A DNA stretch of 42,398 bases, from positions 1-42,398 of the forward strand of contig CACFVT010000007.1 in assembly GCA_902569865.1 (NCBI GenBank), given 5' to 3'. Below the pieces are notes generated by a model. It did no database searches and had not been told where the DNA came from. It worked only from the letters and a program-made list of their open reading frames with translations. The position numbers and the translations under genes were made by a program. This DNA comes from an uncultured Alphaproteobacteria bacterium. Its GTDB lineage: Bacteria; Pseudomonadota; Alphaproteobacteria; HIMB59; GCA-002718135. Positions within the stretch are counted from its first letter, which is position 1. Every line of letters starts with the position of its first letter. Positions 22,363-41,384 of this stretch are shown in pieces.

Positions 22363-23193
22363 ATGAGTAGAAGAAAAAAATTAACAGTTTATGATTATTT
22401 AAAGTCTAAAGGTAAAAGACAGTTGAGCAATTTATTTGTTCACACTATAGAAGAAGCTGCGGCTGCTGAAGAGGCTGGAATAGATTATATTGTTGCAGCA
22501 CATGATTTGCCACAATTTGGAATCAATGCCTCATTAAATGATGTAAAAAAAATAAGAGAAGTTGCTCCAAATTGTTTTATGCAATCTGCTGGACCAATAC
22601 CACCAGCTTCAGAATATGAAGCCATTAAATTCGCACATGATTATTTATCCTTTGGGGTAGATTGTATCTATGTTGGTAATCACAGTTTAAAATGGATTAG
22701 AGCTATGCGTGATGAAAATATTCCTACAATTGGTCATGTTGGCTTAATTCCTGGTAAGGCAACCTGGATCGGTGGGTTAAGAGCAATTGGCAAAACAGCA
22801 GATGAGGCCATAGGTGTTTTAAAACATACATTAGATCTTCAAGAAGCAGGTGTAATTGGTGTTGAGCTTGAAGTTGTACCACCCAAAGTTGCAAAAGTAA
22901 TAACAGATAAAGTTGAAATTATAACAATGTCAATGGGAAGTGGTTCTGACTGCGATGCACAATTTTTATTTTCAAATGATGTGTTAGGTTGGAATGAGGG
23001 GCACATACCAAGACATGCAAGAGTATACAGAAACTTTAAAAAAGAATATGCCAGACTACAAGCAGAGAGAATATTAGCATTTAAAGAATTTCATGAAGAT
23101 ACAATAAATAAAAAGTTTAATGATCCTAAAATAAACGTACAAATCAAGGATGATGAATTTGATAAATTTTTAGAATTAGCTGAAAAAATCTAA
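22363..23193 (+). CDS. PanB-like (ketopantoate hydroxymethyltransferase superfamily) protein, divergent
   Basis: A 276-residue TIM-barrel protein. The frame is open from 22321 inside gloA, but the natural start is the ATG at 22363, giving MSRRKKLTVYDYLK, which aligns with the PanB N-terminus. The best family match is GHVGLIPGKATWIGG...EAGVIGVELEVVP (residues 124-173), the counterpart of PanB AHVGLTPQ...LECVP. Aligned by eye, the PanB metal and substrate residues are only partly kept: HD at 47-48 replaces GDS, the second metal aspartate is not apparent, and the KxE pair is replaced by VGN. It is therefore probably a PanB or PEP-mutase/isocitrate-lyase-type aldolase with another substrate. The stop overlaps the desaturase stop by 4 nt. 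Confidence 0.7.
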   Translation: MSRRKKLTVYDYLKSKGKRQLSNLFVHTIEEAAAAEEAGIDYIVAAHDLPQFGINASLNDVKKIREVAPNCFMQSAGPIPPASEYEAIKFAHDYLSFGVDCIYVGNHSLKWIRAMRDENIPTIGHVGLIPGKATWIGGLRAIGKTADEAIGVLKHTLDLQEAGVIGVELEVVPPKVAKVITDKVEIITMSMGSGSDCDAQFLFSNDVLGWNEGHIPRHARVYRNFKKEYARLQAERILAFKEFHEDTINKKFNDPKINVQIKDDEFDKFLELAEKI

Positions 23194-24170
23194 TTAGGTA
23201 CACTCAACTCAATTTTATAATTTGGATTTCTAGCTTGTTTAAAAATTGCTGGAATAATTTCTTTATAAGCTCCCCAAAGACCATTTTTTGCAGGAGGCAT
23301 CTGATCTTTAATTAAATTATGAAGTTTTGGCAAATTATACGATGGTACTGTAGGAAACATATGATGCTCAATGTGATATTCCATATGCCAATATAAAAAA
23401 CTGAAAACAGGATTTAGATATACAGTACGTGTGCTATAACGATGATCTTTGATATTTTCTTGCAAGCCAGTATGCTGTGTTAATCCAAAAGAAGCAACAA
23501 GAGTTTTCCCATAAAACCCAGGAAGAACTAAGTACAAAATAGGTAGCCAAGTCTGATAAAATATAGATATTAAAATTACAACTAACCAAATACCAACATG
23601 TATTCTTGCTGAATTTCTGCATTTTGATCGTTCTTTCTCAGGAATACATTGCTCCATCACAGGTGTAGTAATTCCAATAGCATGTTTTATAGTTTCAAAT
23701 TGCAGTGTTTTATGGAATGTTAACATTGGAGCAAAGGGAATAAAATATGAAAAAAATAAAAATAAATCAGTTGGTTTTCTTATTGCAATTTCAAAATCAT
23801 GAGGATCATCATATGCTGTAAATCCATGATGTTTAAAATGAGACCATCTCCATCTTACTGGTTCAAAATTATCCATATAACTGGAAATTTGATAAAAAAT
23901 ATTGTTCCAGAATTTTGATTTAAATGCAGTTTTATGACCCGTTTCATGCCAAATAGAATCACTGCAAGCATATATGTTCCCATAAATTATAAAGAATAGA
24001 AGACTCCACCATGTTCCCCAAGTAGCATAAGCAAGATATCCAAAAAAAATTAGAACACTAAAATATATAGATACGTGCTTAAAACCTGCCCAATCAGATT
24101 TTTCACACAATTTTCTGAATTCTTCTTTATCAACTTCTGGACGATACCATTTATCTAAGTCAACTTTCAT
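23190..24170 (-). CDS. Membrane di-iron oxygenase of the fatty acid desaturase family (MocD-like)
   Basis: A 326-residue integral membrane protein with the three histidine boxes of desaturases and hydroxylases: H75ETGH79, H111FKHH115 and H266IEHH270, plus His233 in FGLTQHTG. The FEPVRWRWSHFKHH block and the ending YHIEHHMFPTVP...LP resemble, from memory, proteins annotated MocD (hydrocarbon oxygenase) from the rhizopine cluster rather than acyl-lipid desaturases. The neighbouring gene upstream encodes a MocA-type dehydrogenase and an importer lies in the same run, which supports a sugar or cyclitol oxygenase role; a lipid desaturase is the alternative. It needs an electron donor, possibly the Rieske-fold protein at 33477-33797. 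It is the last gene of the minus-strand run. Confidence 0.75.
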   Translation of the reverse strand: MKVDLDKWYRPEVDKEEFRKLCEKSDWAGFKHVSIYFSVLIFFGYLAYATWGTWWSLLFFIIYGNIYACSDSIWHETGHKTAFKSKFWNNIFYQISSYMDNFEPVRWRWSHFKHHGFTAYDDPHDFEIAIRKPTDLFLFFSYFIPFAPMLTFHKTLQFETIKHAIGITTPVMEQCIPEKERSKCRNSARIHVGIWLVVILISIFYQTWLPILYLVLPGFYGKTLVASFGLTQHTGLQENIKDHRYSTRTVYLNPVFSFLYWHMEYHIEHHMFPTVPSYNLPKLHNLIKDQMPPAKNGLWGAYKEIIPAIFKQARNPNYKIELSVPN

Positions 24171-32508: not shown

Positions 32509-33480
32509 ATGAAGATTGCTATAATTGGGGAAATACATCCAGATGGCTTGGAAACGCTTGAAAAATCTAATTTTAATGCTTTTGAAATTTCTAACATTGA
32601 AAAAAATAACTTAAAAAAAGCACTTGAAGATGTTGATGGGATAATTATACGATCTGCACCAAACTTAAACTCTGATATTCTTAAAGATTGCCGTAAAATT
32701 AAAATTATTGCACGTCATGGAGTGGGGTATGATAATGTAGACTTAGAATATCTTAATCAAAATAATATTGCACTTGGAGTAACTGGAACATCTAACGCCG
32801 TTAGTGTTGCTGAACATGTACTTGCTTCTTTTTTATATCTTACAAAAAATATTAACTTGTCAGATGAGCTAACAAGGAATGGGGGTTTTAAAAATAAATC
32901 TTCTTTACCAGATTTCTTTGAATTATATAAAAAAAATATTGTTATTTTTGGTTTTGGAAGGATAGGTAAAGCTCTAGCAAAAAGATGTATTGGTTTTGAA
33001 ACTAATGTTTATGTTTTTGATCCATTTATTAACAAAAGTGAAATTCATAAACATAACTGTATACCAGTTGATAAGAATGAAGGTATAAAATTAGCCGATT
33101 ATATTTCAGTGCATCTTCCATTAAACCAAGACACAAAAAATTTTATCTCAGATGAAGAGTTTGCATTGATGAAAAACTCAGTTATCATTGCTAATACGGC
33201 ACGAGGAGGTATTATCAATGAAAATGCTTTACTAAATGCATTAAAAAGTAAAAAAATTCTTGGCGCTTCTTTAGATGTTTTTGAAAAAGAACCTCCAGAT
33301 TCAAATCACCCAATATTTAAATTATCAAACGTTTTACTATCACCCCACAATGCCGCTTTGACATTGGAATGTAGAAAGAGAATGGCGATTGAATCTGCTG
33401 AAAATGTTATTTATTTTTTAAAAAATCAAGAAAAATTAAATATCAATAATATTGTAAATAAAGAAAAATTTAAATTTTAA
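32509..33480 (+). CDS. D-isomer-specific 2-hydroxyacid dehydrogenase (SerA-like fold)
   Basis: A 323-residue NAD-dependent dehydrogenase. The cofactor motif GFGRIG is at 148-153 with Asp171 at the end of the second strand, favouring NAD. The catalytic triad is Arg232 (NTARGG), Glu261 (FEKEPPD) and His280 (LSPHNA). There is no C-terminal ACT domain, so it is probably a catabolic hydroxyacid, hydroxypyruvate or glyoxylate reductase rather than a regulated phosphoglycerate dehydrogenase. Its stop is interleaved with that of the Rieske-fold gene in TTAA at 33477-33480. The 132-bp region before it is AT-rich and holds the divergent promoters. Confidence 0.88.
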   Translation: MKIAIIGEIHPDGLETLEKSNFNAFEISNIEKNNLKKALEDVDGIIIRSAPNLNSDILKDCRKIKIIARHGVGYDNVDLEYLNQNNIALGVTGTSNAVSVAEHVLASFLYLTKNINLSDELTRNGGFKNKSSLPDFFELYKKNIVIFGFGRIGKALAKRCIGFETNVYVFDPFINKSEIHKHNCIPVDKNEGIKLADYISVHLPLNQDTKNFISDEEFALMKNSVIIANTARGGIINENALLNALKSKKILGASLDVFEKEPPDSNHPIFKLSNVLLSPHNAALTLECRKRMAIESAENVIYFLKNQEKLNINNIVNKEKFKF

Positions 33481-33797
33481 AGATTTAAATATATTTCACC
33501 TTCTTCTTCAATAATATCATACATCTTTAAAGCGGGTAGTTCCAAATCACTTATTGGATCACCTGATACGATGCTGAAGGTGTTGCCACAACTAGCACAT
33601 TCAAGCTCTTCTCCCTCAACACTGGATTCACTTATAAAAGTCTGGTCTTCACAATGGCAATGGCCTTGAAGAGCAAAAAAACCTGATTCAAGTCGAAAAA
33701 TAGCATAATCTATTTCTTCGTGTTCAAAATTCTCAACACTTCCAACATCAATATCATCCTGCTGCCCAATATGAACAGGTTCAATTTCCATATTCAT
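33477..33797 (-). CDS. Rieske-fold ferredoxin-like protein with a four-cysteine cluster motif
   Basis: A 106-residue acidic protein. Order and spacing follow small Rieske ferredoxins of the MocE/oxygenase type: strand DYAIFRLESGFFALQG, first ligand loop GHCHCED, second ligand loop LECASCGNTFSIVSGDP, then LPALKMYDIIEEEGEIYLNL. The classical ligands would be CxH and CxxH. Here the positions read Cys47-x-Cys49 and Cys67-x-x-Cys70, so both histidines appear to be cysteine, although His46 and His48 flank the first pair. It may carry an all-cysteine [2Fe-2S] or rubredoxin-like site. It ends the fucose-type operon, 42 nt after the lldD-like gene, and could serve the MocD-like oxygenase. Confidence 0.75.
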   Translation of the reverse strand: MNMEIEPVHIGQQDDIDVGSVENFEHEEIDYAIFRLESGFFALQGHCHCEDQTFISESSVEGEELECASCGNTFSIVSGDPISDLELPALKMYDIIEEEGEIYLNL

Positions 33798-33839: not shown

Positions 33840-34994
33840 TTATCTAAATTTTAAATTTTTTCTAGAAAGTTCACTGATGTTATTAACACCCATTAGTTTC
33901 ATATCTCTCTCAATTTCATTTTTTAAATTGGATAAAGTTTTTTCAACACCTCTTTGTCCTCCTGCAGCAAGAGCATACAAATACATTCTACCTCCAGAGC
34001 ATGCCTTTGCACCAAGTGAAAGTGCTTTTAATACATGCGTTCCTCTTCTAATACCGCCTTCACAAATAACATCTACTTTATCACCTACAGCATCGACTAT
34101 TTCTGCAAGTTGATCAAAAGGTGATCTTGATCCATCAAGCTGTCTTCCTCCATGATTTGAAATCATTACACAAGTAGCCCCAACATCGACTGCCTTTTTC
34201 GCATCCTCAACAGACATTATTCCTTTAATAGCAAATTGTTTTCCCCAATTTTTATTTATTTTTTCAACACCTTTCCAATCAAGAGAATTATCTAGCATTT
34301 GAGTAAAATAATCTCCAATACTTGTCATAACACTTGTCCCAGCAGCTATATGATTCTTTAAATTACTTAATTCCCATTTAGGTTTAGTAAAATAATTAAA
34401 TGCCCAAGCTGGATGTGTGGCAAAACTTAATGCACTTTTTAAAGTCAATTTCATCGGAATAGTAAATCCTGTTTGAAGATCTCTTTCTCTATTACCTCCA
34501 ACTGCTGTATCAACTGTAACAGCCATTGCTTCAAAATTAGAGTTTTTACATCTATCAATTAGATCTTTATTTAAACCTTCATCTTTGTGCACATATAGTT
34601 GAAATAATTTAGGTGATGATACTAAGTTTGATATTTCTTCAATACTTGCGGTACCTAAAGAAGATATACCAAACATTGTTCCAAATTTTTCAGCCGCTTT
34701 AGCTACTCCTATTTCTCCTTCATAATGAAATAATCTTTGTAGTGCAGTTGGAGCACAATAAAGAGGCATATCAATTTTTTGCCCCATAACAGTTGTTGAC
34801 ATATCAACTTTATCAACACCTGATAGAACATTAGGTACTAAATCACATGAATCAAATGCTTCAGTATTTCTTTTATAAGTTATTTCATCGTCAGCAGCAC
34901 CATCAATATAGTGAAAAATTGGACTAGGTAATTTTTTTTTTGCCAATTCTCTAAAATCTTTTACGTTGTGACAATTATTAATACTGTTAAACAT
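33840..34994 (-). CDS. lldD: FMN-dependent alpha-hydroxyacid dehydrogenase (L-lactate dehydrogenase type)
   Basis: A 384-residue enzyme of the LldD/glycolate oxidase family. The catalytic base is His281 with Arg284 in SNHGGRQLDGSRSPFDQL. Lys257 and the CEGGIRRGTHVLKALSLGAKACSGGR segment bind FMN phosphate, and the N-terminal FHYIDGAADDEITY and APTALQRLFH segments are typical. In this operon it fits as the enzyme that oxidises L-lactate released by the upstream FAH-family hydrolase. A 2-nt gap separates the two genes. Other small L-2-hydroxyacids cannot be excluded. Confidence 0.88.
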   Translation of the reverse strand: MFNSINNCHNVKDFRELAKKKLPSPIFHYIDGAADDEITYKRNTEAFDSCDLVPNVLSGVDKVDMSTTVMGQKIDMPLYCAPTALQRLFHYEGEIGVAKAAEKFGTMFGISSLGTASIEEISNLVSSPKLFQLYVHKDEGLNKDLIDRCKNSNFEAMAVTVDTAVGGNRERDLQTGFTIPMKLTLKSALSFATHPAWAFNYFTKPKWELSNLKNHIAAGTSVMTSIGDYFTQMLDNSLDWKGVEKINKNWGKQFAIKGIMSVEDAKKAVDVGATCVMISNHGGRQLDGSRSPFDQLAEIVDAVGDKVDVICEGGIRRGTHVLKALSLGAKACSGGRMYLYALAAGGQRGVEKTLSNLKNEIERDMKLMGVNNISELSRKNLKFR

Positions 34995-34996
34995 TG

Positions 34997-35845
34997 TTAA
35001 GCAGCTACTGTCTTTTGAGTTTGTTCTCCCAAACCTTCAATACCTAATTTCATTAAATCACCAGGCTTTAAAAATACTTGGGGTTTCATACCCATACCCA
35101 CACCAGGAGGTGTGCCAGTAGAAATTATATCTCCAGGTTGGAGTGACATAAATCTGCTTAAATAGCTTATTAAAAAATTTACACCATACACCATTGTTTT
35201 GGTTGAGCCATCTTGCATTCTTTTGCCATTAACGTCTAACCACATTGATAAGTTTTGTGGATCAGTAATTTCATCTTTTGTAACTAAATACGGTCCAATA
35301 GGTCCAAATGTATCACAAGATTTTCCTTTTACCCACTGACCCGAATGTTCTAGCTGAAAAGCCCTTTCACTTAAATCATTTACTACGCAGTAACCTGCAA
35401 TATATTCTTGTGCCTGATCCTCAGAAACATATTTTGCTTCCTTACCAATAACAACTCCTAACTCAACTTCCCAATCAGACTTCTTAGAATTTTTTGGAAT
35501 GTGAATATCATCATTAGGTCCAACAATTGCGCTTGTAGCTTTAAAGAATATTATTGGCTCAGGTGGTACTTCCATTCCTGTCTCTTCTGCGTGATCTGAA
35601 TAATTTAAGCCTATACAAATAATTTTACCAACGCTTTTTTTACAAACACATGGTGCTATACTATCAATATTTTCTACTTTAGGCAAAGAAGAGATATCAG
35701 TGTTTTTTATTTCACTTAGTTTTTGAACAGTAACATTATCACTATCCCAGTCAGACACTAAACTTGAAGCATCACGAATATTTTCTTCTGTATCTAAAAT
35801 TCCAGGTTTTACCTCATTACCAATTCTATATCTTAAAGTTCTCAT
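34997..35845 (-). CDS. FAH-family hydrolase, probable 2,4-diketo-3-deoxy-L-fuconate hydrolase
   Basis: A 282-residue fumarylacetoacetate hydrolase-fold enzyme. Metal ligands are Glu126 and Glu128 (DWEVELGVVIG) and Asp157 (VVNDLSER). GLNYSDHAEETGMEVPPEPIIFFK and GKSCDTFGPIGPYLV are typical of bacterial FAH hydrolases acting on diketo acids. In the L-fucose route this class splits the diketo acid to pyruvate and L-lactate. The frame begins at 35857, but I chose ATG 35845, which overlaps the upstream SDR stop as TAATG. Confidence 0.88.
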   Translation of the reverse strand: MRTLRYRIGNEVKPGILDTEENIRDASSLVSDWDSDNVTVQKLSEIKNTDISSLPKVENIDSIAPCVCKKSVGKIICIGLNYSDHAEETGMEVPPEPIIFFKATSAIVGPNDDIHIPKNSKKSDWEVELGVVIGKEAKYVSEDQAQEYIAGYCVVNDLSERAFQLEHSGQWVKGKSCDTFGPIGPYLVTKDEITDPQNLSMWLDVNGKRMQDGSTKTMVYGVNFLISYLSRFMSLQPGDIISTGTPPGVGMGMKPQVFLKPGDLMKLGIEGLGEQTQKTVAA

Positions 35846-36582
35846 TATAAAGTCCATCCTCCATCAATTAAATTAAGGGTTCCAGTCACAAAATCTGATT
35901 CATCGCTAGCTAAATAAACTGCCATTGATGCTATCTCATTAGGCTGAGCTAATCTGCCCATTGCTTGTCTAGAAATAAAATCTTTTCTTGCTTGCTCAGG
36001 GTCATCAGCCATTTGAACTCTACCTTCCCAAGATGGAGTCTCTACTGTTCCAGGCAAAATCGCATTGCATCTGATACCATCTTTTATATAATCAACAGCA
36101 ATTGATTTAACAAAACCATTTAAAGCCGCTTTAGTTGTTGTATAAATAAATCTATTTGGAACACCCTTAACACTTGAAGCCGCAGAAGATACAATAATAA
36201 TATTTCCTTTTTTCTGTTTTATCATTTTTGGTAATAAAGAGTGCGACATCAGATAAGCAGAATAAATATTAACATTTATTGATCTTTGGAATTCTGCAGA
36301 GTCACAGTCTAGAATGGCACCATGATGGACAAAGCCTACAGCATGAAAAAGAATATTAATATTATTTAAAGATGAACAAAAATTTTCAACATCTAATTTA
36401 TTAGTAGAATCTAATTTGTGCGTTTCAATATTAGAATGATTAGCTTTGATCTCGTTTAATTTTTCTTCATTAATATCAGTAGCAATTACATTAGCGCCCT
36501 CATTAGCGAAAGCGATTGCCGTTGCCCTCCCAATCCCTTGAGCAGCAGCGGTTACAACTATGTTTTTATTCTCTAAGCGCAT
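35845..36582 (-). CDS. SDR, probable 2-keto-3-deoxy-L-fuconate dehydrogenase
   Basis: A 245-residue classical SDR with cofactor motif TAAAQGIG (11-18) and catalytic Tyr147 and Lys151 (YTTTK). SSAASSVKGVPNRFIYTTTKAA, NAILPGTVETPS and SDFVTGTLNLIDGGWTL closely resemble the BDH2/DHRS6 group, to which bacterial 2-keto-3-deoxy-L-fuconate 4-dehydrogenases belong. It directly abuts the fuconate dehydratase stop and overlaps the hydrolase start by 1 nt, matching the expected step order. The assignment combines family and operon evidence. Confidence 0.88.
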   Translation of the reverse strand: MRLENKNIVVTAAAQGIGRATAIAFANEGANVIATDINEEKLNEIKANHSNIETHKLDSTNKLDVENFCSSLNNINILFHAVGFVHHGAILDCDSAEFQRSINVNIYSAYLMSHSLLPKMIKQKKGNIIIVSSAASSVKGVPNRFIYTTTKAALNGFVKSIAVDYIKDGIRCNAILPGTVETPSWEGRVQMADDPEQARKDFISRQAMGRLAQPNEIASMAVYLASDESDFVTGTLNLIDGGWTL

Positions 36583-37881
36583 TTAATTATTTTTCCAATA
36601 TTCTCCATTAGGATAAGAGAACTCATTAACAGAATTTTCTTTCATTTCAATAGAGTATCCTAGATCTTGAGGTGGCATATAATTTCCATTATTTATTTTA
36701 CATGGATATATAAAATGTTCATGAAGACTATCTTGATATTCAACTACTTTATTATCTTTTTCACCATTAATCAGAACATAATCTATAATACATAAATGCT
36801 GAACATATTCACACAAGCCTACCCCACCAGCATGCGGAAAAACAGGAACATCAAATTTATGCGCCATTAATAATACTGTTAATATTTCATTAATACTGCC
36901 TAAACGACAACTATCAATTTGACACACATTCATTGCTCCAGACTCTAAGAATTGTTTAAACATAATACGGCCACTGCATGCCTCACCAGTAGCAAGTTTT
37001 ACGGAACCAACTTCTTTTTTAATTTTTGCAAAACCCATCACATCATCTGGACTAGTAGGTTCTTCAACAAACAATAAGTTGAATTTCTTATAAGCATTAA
37101 TGTGTTCTATTGATTGCTTCACACTCCATTGTTGATTTGCATCAACCATAATAGAACAATCTGGCCCAATAGTATTTCTAATTAATTCTAATCTTTTAAC
37201 ATCAGCTTCTAAATCTAAACCAACCTTTATTTTAAAATGTCTCCATCCTTGAGACATATATTGATTACATAAATCAATTATTTTTTCATCTGAGTAACCT
37301 AGCCAACCAGCTGCAGTTGTATATGATGGATAACCTTCATTAAGAATTTTTTGAATTCTATTTTCTTTAGCATTTTGACTATCTTGTAAAATATTATAGG
37401 CTTCATCTTTTGATAATGCATCCTCAATATACTTGAAGGTAAGCCACTCCATAATAGTATCAGGTTTACTATCAACAACAAATTGCCATAAAGGTTTTTG
37501 ATTTTTTTTTGCAATAAGATCCCAAAGGCAATTAAATATTGCAGCTACAGCCAAATGAACTACTCCCTTTTCAGGACCTAACCATCTCAGTTGACTATGA
37601 TCAACACACTGAAACCAAAGTTTGCCAATTTCATTTTCAAGTTCATCAATAGTTTTTCCAATAAACAAAGGAAAAAAGTGCTTAATGCATTCTGCAACAA
37701 TGTCATTTCCTTTACCAATTGTAAAAGCTATCCCAAATCCTTTTAAATTATTATCTGATGTAAAAACAGTTACATATGTCGCTGAATAATCTGGATCAGT
37801 ATGAATAGCATCAGACCCCGTTAGATCTTTTGATGTTGGAAAGCGAACATCATCTACAGTAAATTTAATTATTTTAGTCAT
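36583..37881 (-). CDS. L-fuconate dehydratase (enolase superfamily)
   Basis: A 432-residue enolase-superfamily enzyme closely resembling L-fuconate dehydratase and human ENOSF1. Catalytic Lys217/Lys219 are in FKIKVG, metal ligands are Asp247, Glu273 and Glu300, the dyad aspartate is Asp323 (QIDSCR) and His350 is in FPHAGG. These fall one position from those I recall for the Xanthomonas enzyme. LRWLGPEKGVVHLA, TTAAGWLGYSDEK and PPQDLGYSIEMK are specific to this group. It dehydrates L-fuconate to 2-keto-3-deoxy-L-fuconate; related L-galactonate or D-arabinonate may also be used. Paired palindromes lie in the leader. Confidence 0.93.
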   Translation of the reverse strand: MTKIIKFTVDDVRFPTSKDLTGSDAIHTDPDYSATYVTVFTSDNNLKGFGIAFTIGKGNDIVAECIKHFFPLFIGKTIDELENEIGKLWFQCVDHSQLRWLGPEKGVVHLAVAAIFNCLWDLIAKKNQKPLWQFVVDSKPDTIMEWLTFKYIEDALSKDEAYNILQDSQNAKENRIQKILNEGYPSYTTAAGWLGYSDEKIIDLCNQYMSQGWRHFKIKVGLDLEADVKRLELIRNTIGPDCSIMVDANQQWSVKQSIEHINAYKKFNLLFVEEPTSPDDVMGFAKIKKEVGSVKLATGEACSGRIMFKQFLESGAMNVCQIDSCRLGSINEILTVLLMAHKFDVPVFPHAGGVGLCEYVQHLCIIDYVLINGEKDNKVVEYQDSLHEHFIYPCKINNGNYMPPQDLGYSIEMKENSVNEFSYPNGEYWKNN

Positions 37882-38011: not shown

Positions 38012-38875
38012 TTATATTCTATAATATTTTTCAGCATTCTTCATTAATAAATCATTAATTTCAGTATGACTAAATTTAGATATAATTTTCATATAAGCTA
38101 ACCAAAAAGATTGATATGTGGACTTAGAAAAAAATTTATCAACTGGAAAATTACTTGCAAACATACATCTTTTTGTTCCAAAACTATCAATAGCAACTTT
38201 AATATAATCACTAATAAAATCAGTACTCCAATTAGTTTTCCATTCTCCAAATCCTGATATTTTTAGAACAACATTATCAAGTTTACTCATTTCGTTTACT
38301 GCTTTTTTCCAGCCATCAAAATCATCAAGTGACTCTTCAGGCCACAAACAATGATTAATAAGAAATTGAACACTTGGAAATTTTTTTATTAAATCAATTG
38401 CTTGCTTATATTGCGTATAATAAATTAAGATATCAAAACTTAGGTCAAATTTTTTTAATAAATTAAAATTTTGTAGCCATAGTTCATTATATAAAAAATC
38501 ATTTTTTCGATCTTTGCATTTCAAAATTTGACGAATGCCTCTAAAATTTTTAAATTGCTTATGCTCCTCTAAGTCTTTTTCTGCTTTTGAATCTAATAAA
38601 TTTACAAAACCAACTATAGCATTTGGAAAACTTAATGGGTGTGAATCCGATATTTTTTGTAACCACTCAGTTTCCTTTATTTTATTTTTTTCACTAATTT
38701 CAGCTTGAATATGAACAATTTTTTTAAGAGAAAGACCTTTTGCATCATTCATCAAATTTTCGATTAAATAATTTTGTTTTAAATCATGATTCTCATTATT
38801 TTGAATCCAAGGATAATCATTATTTAAGTCCCATAAATGAATATGTGTATCAATGAAATTTATATGATTTAACAT
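38012..38875 (-). CDS. COG3618 amidohydrolase, probable L-fucono-lactonase
   Basis: A 287-residue TIM-barrel hydrolase of the amidohydrolase_2 type. The metal motif DTHIHLWDL (Asp9, His11, His13) is at the N-terminus, with later NHC and SNFPVD segments supplying further active-site residues. COG3618 proteins include L-fuconolactone and L-rhamnonolactone hydrolases. Its position just upstream of the dehydratase gene fits hydrolysis of L-fuconolactone to L-fuconate. The 130-bp gap with palindromes means the dehydratase could have its own promoter. It is divergent from galE across 79 bp. Confidence 0.88.
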   Translation of the reverse strand: MLNHINFIDTHIHLWDLNNDYPWIQNNENHDLKQNYLIENLMNDAKGLSLKKIVHIQAEISEKNKIKETEWLQKISDSHPLSFPNAIVGFVNLLDSKAEKDLEEHKQFKNFRGIRQILKCKDRKNDFLYNELWLQNFNLLKKFDLSFDILIYYTQYKQAIDLIKKFPSVQFLINHCLWPEESLDDFDGWKKAVNEMSKLDNVVLKISGFGEWKTNWSTDFISDYIKVAIDSFGTKRCMFASNFPVDKFFSKSTYQSFWLAYMKIISKFSHTEINDLLMKNAEKYYRI

Positions 38876-39938: not shown

Positions 39939-40971
39939 AAGACAGTTTAAGAGAAACGATAATAAACATTTGCTATTGTATGGATATAGCAAGCATGTTG
40001 AAACATCTGTCCAAGAGCTTGAAAAAATAGATTCACCCACGCCACATATGCGATGGAATCCTGCAAGACAAGAATGGGTAACTTATTCTGAAACCAGAAA
40101 AGTAAGAACCTCTTTTCCACCAGAAGAATATTGCCCTTTGTGTCCTGGTGCTGAATTAAATTTTGCAACTGAAATCCCATTTAGTAATTTTGAGGTTGCC
40201 ATCTTTCCAAATAGATGGGCCAGTTTTCATACTAATGATAATCAAATATCCATTGATGGCTTAAGCGCAAAACCATCAAATGGAGAGTGTGAAGTAGTGG
40301 TTTATTCTTCTAAACACTTAGATACAATTGCTCAGATGCCATTAAGCAGAATAGAACTTTTATTTAATGCTTGGTCAGATCGTTACATCAAACTATTAGA
40401 AAGAGATGATATTAAATATGTAATGCCTTTTGAAAATAGAGGTGTAGAATGTGGCGTCACTCTTCATCATCCACATGGACAAATTTATGCCTATCCTTTT
40501 ATTCCTCCAGTAATTCAAAAAGAAATAGAAGCATTTAATAAAGAAAATTTTATTAAAAAATTAATGAAAAATTTAGAAAAAAATTATTTTGTTTACCAAG
40601 ATGATCATGTGATTGCAGCTATACCACCATTTGCAAGATATGCTTATGAAATATGGATAATTCCAAAAAGACAGATAGCAGGACCTTGGCAATTTACTGA
40701 CCAAGAATATAATTCTTTTGCTGTTGCTCTTCAAAAAGTAGTTAAGGGATATGATAGTTTTTTAGGCAGAAGGTGCCCTTATATAATGGGATTACATGCT
40801 GGTCCTAATCTAGAAGATAATAATTTCCATTTTCATATGGAATTTTATCCCCCTTTAAGACATGGTGATAAGCCCAAAGTATTAGCTGGCTCAGAGTCAA
40901 TGGCTGGGGTATTCATCATGGATGTTTTTCCTGAAGAGACTGCAATTGAGCTTAGAAAGTTTATGTCATGA
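39922..40971 (+). CDS. galT: Galactose-1-phosphate uridylyltransferase
   Basis: A 349-residue HIT-superfamily enzyme that transfers UMP between glucose-1-phosphate and galactose-1-phosphate. The nucleophile is the second histidine of HPH (His185, in LHHPHGQIYAYP). Zinc-site cysteines are in CPLC (71-74), and the C-terminal LHAGPNLEDNNFHFHMEFYPP block is typical. The start ATG 39922 overlaps galE; it overlaps sufE by 4 nt (ATGA). galK and galM are not in the window. Confidence 0.94.
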   Translation: MKKIYKRQFKRNDNKHLLLYGYSKHVETSVQELEKIDSPTPHMRWNPARQEWVTYSETRKVRTSFPPEEYCPLCPGAELNFATEIPFSNFEVAIFPNRWASFHTNDNQISIDGLSAKPSNGECEVVVYSSKHLDTIAQMPLSRIELLFNAWSDRYIKLLERDDIKYVMPFENRGVECGVTLHHPHGQIYAYPFIPPVIQKEIEAFNKENFIKKLMKNLEKNYFVYQDDHVIAAIPPFARYAYEIWIIPKRQIAGPWQFTDQEYNSFAVALQKVVKGYDSFLGRRCPYIMGLHAGPNLEDNNFHFHMEFYPPLRHGDKPKVLAGSESMAGVFIMDVFPEETAIELRKFMS

Positions 40972-41384
40972 AATCAATTGAAGAAAAAATTAATTTTTTT
41001 AAAGAAAACTTAGAATTATTTGATGATGATATGGATAAATATAAATATCTTCTAGACCAAGCAAAAAATGCAAAACCCTTTCCTGAAGAATATAGACAAG
41101 ATAGTTTTAAAGTCGATGGATGCCAAGCACAAGTGTGGTTGGTGCCATATATAGAACAAAAAAATTTATGTTTTTATTCAGACTCTGATGCCTTTATTTC
41201 AAAAGGAATGGTAACAATTCTTTGTGAAATTTATGGAGACAGAAACCCAGGTGAAATTGCAAAAGCAGACTTTGATCTTTTATCTTCATTAAAATTAGAT
41301 ACCTTGTTAACACCTGGAAGACGAAATGGTGTATATTCAATGCTAATGAAAATTAAAGAATATGGAAATGTTTACAGTCAATAA
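40968..41384 (+). CDS. sufE: Cysteine desulfuration protein SufE
   Basis: A 138-residue sulfur-transfer protein that accepts persulfide from SufS for Fe-S cluster assembly. The active cysteine is in the conserved VDGCQAQVWLVP loop. PEEYRQDSFKVDGC, GMVTILCEIYGDRNPGEI and the C-terminal LTPGRRNGVYSML are family-typical. It overlaps galT as ATGA, so it is probably cotranscribed with galET, an unexpected pairing; no other suf gene is visible here. Confidence 0.93.
   Translation: MKSIEEKINFFKENLELFDDDMDKYKYLLDQAKNAKPFPEEYRQDSFKVDGCQAQVWLVPYIEQKNLCFYSDSDAFISKGMVTILCEIYGDRNPGEIAKADFDLLSSLKLDTLLTPGRRNGVYSMLMKIKEYGNVYSQ

Follow-up and report, generated by a model that had tools for sequence, protein, structure and literature searches.

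Rieske ferredoxins hold the outer iron of their cluster through two histidines; a cysteine in either place would be shorter and negatively charged. MocE-family ferredoxins are encoded beside a ferredoxin reductase and oxygenase or desaturase partners.

Iwasaki and co-workers replaced these histidines by cysteine in the archaeal Rieske ferredoxin ARF of Sulfolobus (PMC2946596). In their work, the H64C mutant, with three cysteines and one histidine, built a low-potential [2Fe-2S] cluster, H44C failed or was largely impaired in cluster assembly, the double mutant H44C/H64C largely failed, and a respaced all-cysteine mutant with CxxC in loop 1 held a mononuclear Fe(Cys)4 site. The paper also likens Rieske loops to the loops found in rubredoxin and zinc ribbons. 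In Hsp33, CxC and CxxC pairs together hold one zinc (PMC8282892). Our search of open-licence papers found no natural four-cysteine Rieske-fold protein, a result that leaves its absence unproven.

Here we describe such a candidate, named R4C, in a 42,398-nucleotide stretch of DNA (the window) from an uncultured alphaproteobacterium. As far as we found, its ligand change was known before only as an engineered one. R4C shares the kind of fold and the histidine-to-cysteine replacement with ARF H64C, H44C/H64C, and H44I/K45C/H64C, and the CxC + CxxC pattern with H44C/H64C; unlike these man-made mutants it is natural, and the distance from inner cysteine to inner cysteine is 20 rather than 19 (PMC2946596). 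The author of the preliminary description knew of no described ferredoxin with such a motif in this fold; given the engineered ARF mutants, this can hold for natural proteins only. The gene and its two metal loops lie as follows.

33477 to 33797, minus strand: R4C, an all-cysteine Rieske-fold protein of 106 amino acids, recognized from its open reading frame, predicted fold, and orthologues
33651 to 33659, minus strand: first metal loop, Cys47-x-Cys49 (codons 47 to 49), at the Rieske Cys-x-His position, from alignment and orthologues
33588 to 33599, minus strand: second metal loop, Cys67-x-x-Cys70 (codons 67 to 70), at the Rieske Cys-x-x-His position, from alignment and orthologues
32509 to 33480, plus strand: convergent D-2-hydroxyacid dehydrogenase (Pfam match), the neighbor of R4C on its other side

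In the window the reading frame opens with ATG, and its 3′ end shares four bases with the convergent dehydrogenase gene. The only cysteines are C47, C49, C67, and C70, in the motifs C47-H48-C49 and C67-A-S-C70. R4C is very acidic, with a calculated pI of 4.05–4.18 among the best 80 of 84 relatives and a charge of −19 to −28, vs −10 to −18 in eight canonical paralogues, for which domain stretches only were used. A promoter and terminator scan gave counts close to those of shuffled sequences and was uninformative.

The best NCBIfam match of R4C is the MocE-family ferredoxin TIGR02377 (E 1.6e-7), whose cut-off of 136 bits lies far above the 31.2 bits reached. The Pfam Rieske profile PF00355 scores 17.4 bits (E 0.0043; cut-off 20.3) with the window protein; it matches all 23 R4C members searched at E ≤ 1, and among nine near-complete genomes with R4C it exceeds the cut-off in three (G083, G105, and G094; 25.7–26.5 bits) and misses the protein in six. 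With phmmer, R4C matches CarAc (1vck) at E 1.3e-5. An AlphaFold2 model built from a 23-row alignment (pLDDT 90.5, pTM 0.78) retrieved 104 PDB chains at E ≤ 0.001 in Foldseek, the best at E 1.4e-7 and TM 0.86, and reached TM 0.84–0.89 to Rieske ferredoxins. VIA-align gave Z 16.0–17.7 and an rmsd of 1.3–1.9 Å over about 100 residues for its 24 best entries, nearly all of them Rieske ferredoxins. The whole predicted fold is therefore like that of BphF, CarAc, and T4moC (1fqt, 1vck, and 1vm9), whose outer iron sits on two histidines; R4C has cysteine at both places. The rubredoxin profile PF00301 does not appear among the Pfam matches of the 23 members. A search against Rieske and rubredoxin families thus returns Rieske/MocE similarity, for the window protein below the cut-offs, and no rubredoxin match. 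Rubredoxin and zinc-ribbon proteins also differ from R4C in overall fold.

The position of the cysteines follows from the alignments. Against BphF, phmmer gives an ungapped alignment of 91 residues in which C47, C49, C67, and C70 stand opposite Cys, His, Cys, and His. In the first loop R4C is one residue longer than its MocE-type relatives. In hhalign, C49 and C70 each stand opposite a histidine of the MocE-type ferredoxins, and the gap falls later; in tblastn and HMM alignments the position of this gap varies, in some falling right after C47, which would set E50 opposite the histidine. The ambiguity leaves the ligand conclusion unchanged, because 32 of the best 80 R4C proteins contain no histidine and position 50 is no usual metal ligand. 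The preliminary description had ascribed the ligand-loop spacing of MocE-type ferredoxins to R4C. Length, fold, strand order, and loop positions are indeed shared with TIGR02377 and the canonical paralogues of the same order; the spacing itself equals that of BphF. In place of the CxH + CxxH of the MocE family, CxC + CxxC is found in 80/80 orthologues (best 80 of 84). Fold prediction, alignment, and orthologues agree, as first proposed, and support R4C as a predicted full-length Rieske-ferredoxin fold with both histidine ligand positions occupied by cysteine. By the reasoning of the preliminary description, such a site would be expected to have a much lower potential or to bind a single iron.

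A genome scan with R4C-like peptide patterns gave 84 relatives, of which the best 80 were kept, and all 80 loci contain R4C. Within these best 80 of 84 the four cysteines are invariant. The CxC-x17-CxxC spacing is kept in 82/82 loci (two of the 82 being repeats of others), and this identical motif rules out a sequencing or assembly artefact. Each cysteine is encoded by a mixture of TGT and TGC (48 and 32 at C47, for example), so it is the residue and not the DNA that is conserved. The residue after C70 is glycine in 78 of the 80, forming a CxxCG knuckle, often CPxCG. In contrast to the cysteines, residue 46 is N in 59 proteins, H in 18, and another residue in three; at position 48, P occurs in 30, N in 29, H in six, and another residue in 15. 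The preliminary description had considered a shifted ligand set using His46 or His48; since both positions vary freely and 32/80 proteins have no histidine anywhere, this set is excluded. An additional pair of cysteines at positions 42 and 81, nearly always occurring together, is found in 22 of the 80 (L036–L039, for example), and Cys81 stands alone in two more; their covariation suggests that the two residues are spatially close.

That R4C is a ferredoxin in decay, its cluster gone and its cysteines preserved by chance, is very improbable. The stem branch of R4C is long (1.98), and from L075 to L139 R4C is 56–71% identical where the FMN-dehydrogenase beside it is mostly 84–88% identical, as decay would have it. 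However, the cysteines are invariant in 80/80 (best 80 of 84) despite synonymous codon changes, the median pairwise dN/dS is 0.13 (149 scorable of 300 sampled pairs), and none of the 80 genes has an internal stop codon.

R4C is probably a diverged duplicate of the MocE-type ferredoxin of the same group. Alignment by hhalign with ten canonical MocE-type sequences gave a probability of 99.4% and 30% identity over 102 columns. In a 42-row tree, which included 14 of the 80 R4C proteins and kept the ligand columns, R4C forms a single clade (100/100), and a branch with 94/98 support, just below the starred threshold of the tool, separates R4C and eight canonical rows of the same order from 20 other canonical rows; the alignment and the shared side of this branch indicate common ancestry with MocE-type ferredoxins. 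R4C attaches beside the paralogue of genome G055 (84/88), but its long stem makes the exact attachment point uncertain.

All 35 homologue stretches read by eye are CxH/CxxH, several of them being one gene under two locus identifiers. They come from seven loci of the window's family (canonical paralogues), eight loci of a class set of 385 genomes, 20 of which matched, and one further set, in which 13 of 18 chosen genomes matched. Likewise, 26/26 stretches from 398 phylum genomes are canonical (with only 12 candidates scored in large genomes). The 12 near-complete genomes hold 38 Rieske-profile matches, 30 of them with a locus, and each locus holds an open reading frame with the CxH/CxxH string; among the other eight, three are R4C itself and one (L049) is canonical. 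A 94-aa open reading frame with a CxC/CxxC string at L208 was set aside as a chance frame. No four-cysteine Rieske relative outside R4C was found among the homologues read; the genome scan used R4C-like peptide patterns and could miss four-cysteine Rieske proteins unlike R4C.

We favor, with a probability of about one half, the reading that both histidine ligands of a duplicated MocE-type Rieske ferredoxin were replaced by cysteine and the change then fixed, and that the four cysteines, two at each ligand-loop tip, would close round one metal ion, either iron as in rubredoxin or zinc as in zinc ribbons. A single-metal Cys4 site would thereby replace the [2Fe-2S](Cys)2(His)2 cluster, and R4C would be retained for the L-fucose-type sugar-acid gene row that it closes. 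We infer this identity and nuclearity of the metal from the ARF mutants, the CxxCG knuckle with its zinc-ribbon similarity, and the CxC/CxxC set of Hsp33. Against it counts that loop 1 of the ARF mutant with one bound iron had CxxC instead of CxC. Like rubredoxin and zinc ribbons such as LysW and the Hsp33 switch domain, R4C has a set of four cysteines and a CxxCG knuckle, and its combination of CxC and CxxC is that of Hsp33; unlike them, it scores far below the zinc-ribbon cut-offs and has no rubredoxin match. A rubredoxin was matched in 0/12 near-complete genomes vs 7/14 control genomes, which shows only that the lineage lacks ordinary rubredoxin, because three of the 12 (G102, G110, and G114) also lack R4C.

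Close behind, and likewise tentative, is the possibility that R4C keeps a [2Fe-2S] cluster held by four cysteines and acts as a low-potential ferredoxin without proton-coupled histidines. Its cysteines occupy the four Rieske ligand positions, its predicted fold is unchanged from that of Rieske ferredoxins, and it descends from [2Fe-2S] ferredoxins; the BphF-like loop spacing could accommodate a [2Fe-2S] core just as well. The CxC pair of mitoNEET binds one metal, which counts against such a cluster. In ARF (PMC2946596), the low-potential [2Fe-2S] cluster of H64C speaks for it, whereas the failed or largely impaired assembly in H44C and H44C/H64C speaks against it, as does the CxC pair of Hsp33, which binds one metal (PMC8282892).

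It is also conceivable, albeit unlikely, that R4C binds zinc and transfers no electrons, serving instead as a structural adaptor or as a thiol switch of the Hsp33 type, a possibility that overlaps with the single-metal reading. CxC/CxxC is the zinc motif of Hsp33 (PMC8282892), 22/80 R4C proteins (best 80 of 84) carry the additional cysteine pair, and weak similarity to zinc-ribbon families recurs among the 23 members: LysW in 14, Trm112p in nine, and RPAB4 in eight with Pfam, and LysW/ArgW in 22 with NCBIfam (best E 5.2e-6). However, the window protein reaches only 13.8 of 27 bits with the LysW profile PF21344 and 21 of 75 bits with NF041070, short cysteine knuckles attract such matches, and the fold as a whole matches ferredoxins that transfer electrons.

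R4C is usually the last gene of a row for fucose and lactate catabolism, which in the window comprises the following genes.

33840 to 34994, minus strand: FMN-dependent L-lactate-dehydrogenase-like enzyme, directly upstream of R4C across a 42-bp gap (Pfam FMN_dh, E 5.6e-129)
34997 to 35857, minus strand: FAA-hydrolase, 2,4-didehydro-3-deoxy-L-rhamnonate-hydrolase-like (NF053535, 388 bits, cut-off 500)
35845 to 36582, minus strand: short-chain dehydrogenase of the same row (Pfam match)
36583 to 37881, minus strand: enolase-superfamily sugar-acid dehydratase, fuconate-dehydratase-like, a role suggested by the pathway (MR_MLE_C, E 2.5e-52)
38012 to 38875, minus strand: amidohydrolase, L-fucono-1,5-lactonase-like (NF052480, 90.9 bits, cut-off 400)

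We take this order to represent the oxidative breakdown of L-fucose (or L-rhamnose) to pyruvate and L-lactate, followed by oxidation of the lactate. The sugar substrate is uncertain because the genes score below NCBIfam cut-offs; the FMN-dehydrogenase, for instance, reaches 305 bits with the L-lactate dehydrogenase subfamily PRK11197 (cut-off 376). Among the best 80 of 84 loci, the FMN-dehydrogenase gene lies directly upstream of R4C in 78, the exceptions being L063, which begins at R4C, and L105 (genome G105), which lacks the gene; the convergent 2-hydroxyacid dehydrogenase lies beyond R4C in 78, all except L099 and L106. In the 67 genomes of the window's genus (G000–G066), R4C is present in 53/54 with the FAA-hydrolase (E ≤ 1e-60) and 0/13 without it, and in the one exception, G053, the contig ends inside the FMN-dehydrogenase gene. 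With neighboring genes and incomplete genomes, this co-occurrence may show no more than linkage. A SufE-family gene (iron-sulfur sulfur transfer) at 40968–41384, the third beyond the lactonase, adjoins GalE and a GalT-like gene, and by sequence reading a SufE-like gene also lies at the edge of L152, a locus of G102, which has no R4C.

If its metal is iron, R4C would most likely carry electrons, as a small and very acidic protein close to the FMN lactate-dehydrogenase-like enzyme; we infer this redox role and partner, and the partner is the weakest link of the proposal. For taking up electrons from lactate oxidation, an iron site with a rubredoxin-like potential would be better suited than a very low-potential [2Fe-2S] cluster. 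An obligate partnership is weakened by several genomes: the sister family has FMN-dehydrogenase relatives at 66–84% identity and no strong R4C match, G102 has a relative (70%) without R4C, G114 has the row of short-chain dehydrogenase, FAA-hydrolase, and FMN-dehydrogenase without R4C, and G105 (91% complete) has R4C and no FMN-dehydrogenase match at E ≤ 1e-30. At L062 the FMN-dehydrogenase is 76% identical to that of the window and the neighbors 91–99% (FAA-hydrolase 98, short-chain dehydrogenase 99, R4C 95), as if this gene alone had been replaced in place; versions at 74–77% also occur in L069, L073, L106, L107, L116, and L119, though they stand out less from their neighbors. At G001:C10:33400-34552 the gene is split into two matches with a TGA inside the first, either a real break or a sequencing error.

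The surroundings also set R4C apart from its MocE-type paralogues. No reductase-like or desaturase-like genes lie close by, its neighbors being the fucose-type catabolic genes, whereas most paralogue loci read have them: by sequence reading, desaturase-like genes are near the canonical paralogues, with a reductase-like gene in most. MocE ferredoxins are said to work with partners of the fatty-acid-desaturase type. By the same reading, a reductase-like gene and several desaturase-like ones surround the canonical paralogue in L042, L043, L044, L049, and L050, which may form a MocDEF-like system of several enzymes. In the window, a profile-confirmed FA_desaturase-family gene at 23190–24170 lies near GFO_IDH_MocA, SDR, and PhyH genes.

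Among 200 genomes sampled, 110 belong to the window's own family, and strong R4C matches (56–100% identity) occur in 86 of these, counting that of the window, and in none outside the family; many of the genomes are incomplete. Among 385 class and 398 phylum genomes, R4C was found in the window's own genus only, all other matches being weak. Eight plasmid records match R4C at 29–32% identity, and no relatives were found in viral contigs. In the best 80 of 84, the carriers are recorded as uncultured marine Alphaproteobacteria, ‘Pelagibacteraceae’ or ‘Pelagibacterales’, one ‘Proteobacteria’ bin, and MarineAlpha5 bins. The family appears to correspond to the AEGEAN-169 group, with its published fucose operon. 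A conserved non-phosphorylating fucose operon is described for AEGEAN-169 ‘Ca. Indicimonas’ in PMC11366302, the main text of which does not contain the word ‘ferredoxin’; the main text of another paper on the group, PMC10308909, contains none of the words ‘Rieske’, ‘ferredoxin’, and ‘fucose’.

Iron-sulfur biology has long asked what makes a fold take one metal centre rather than another. Evolution seems to have repeated a ligand change that engineers made in a Rieske protein, and R4C, if the favored reading is true, would be a natural counterpart of the engineered ARF mutant (PMC2946596). The odds are about even that a Rieske [2Fe-2S] ferredoxin was here converted in nature to a single-metal protein, rubredoxin-like or zinc-ribbon-like, with its fold unchanged, and that the conversion became fixed in a single ocean lineage, which uses the protein in sugar catabolism. 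Many genomes with R4C also encode an unaltered paralogue, so that His2 and Cys4 form a natural pair in one fold, which could be used to test the role of histidine ligation in potential, proton coupling, and cluster assembly. For the uncultured marine group itself, R4C extends the sugar metabolism by a redox or metal protein that has drawn little notice.
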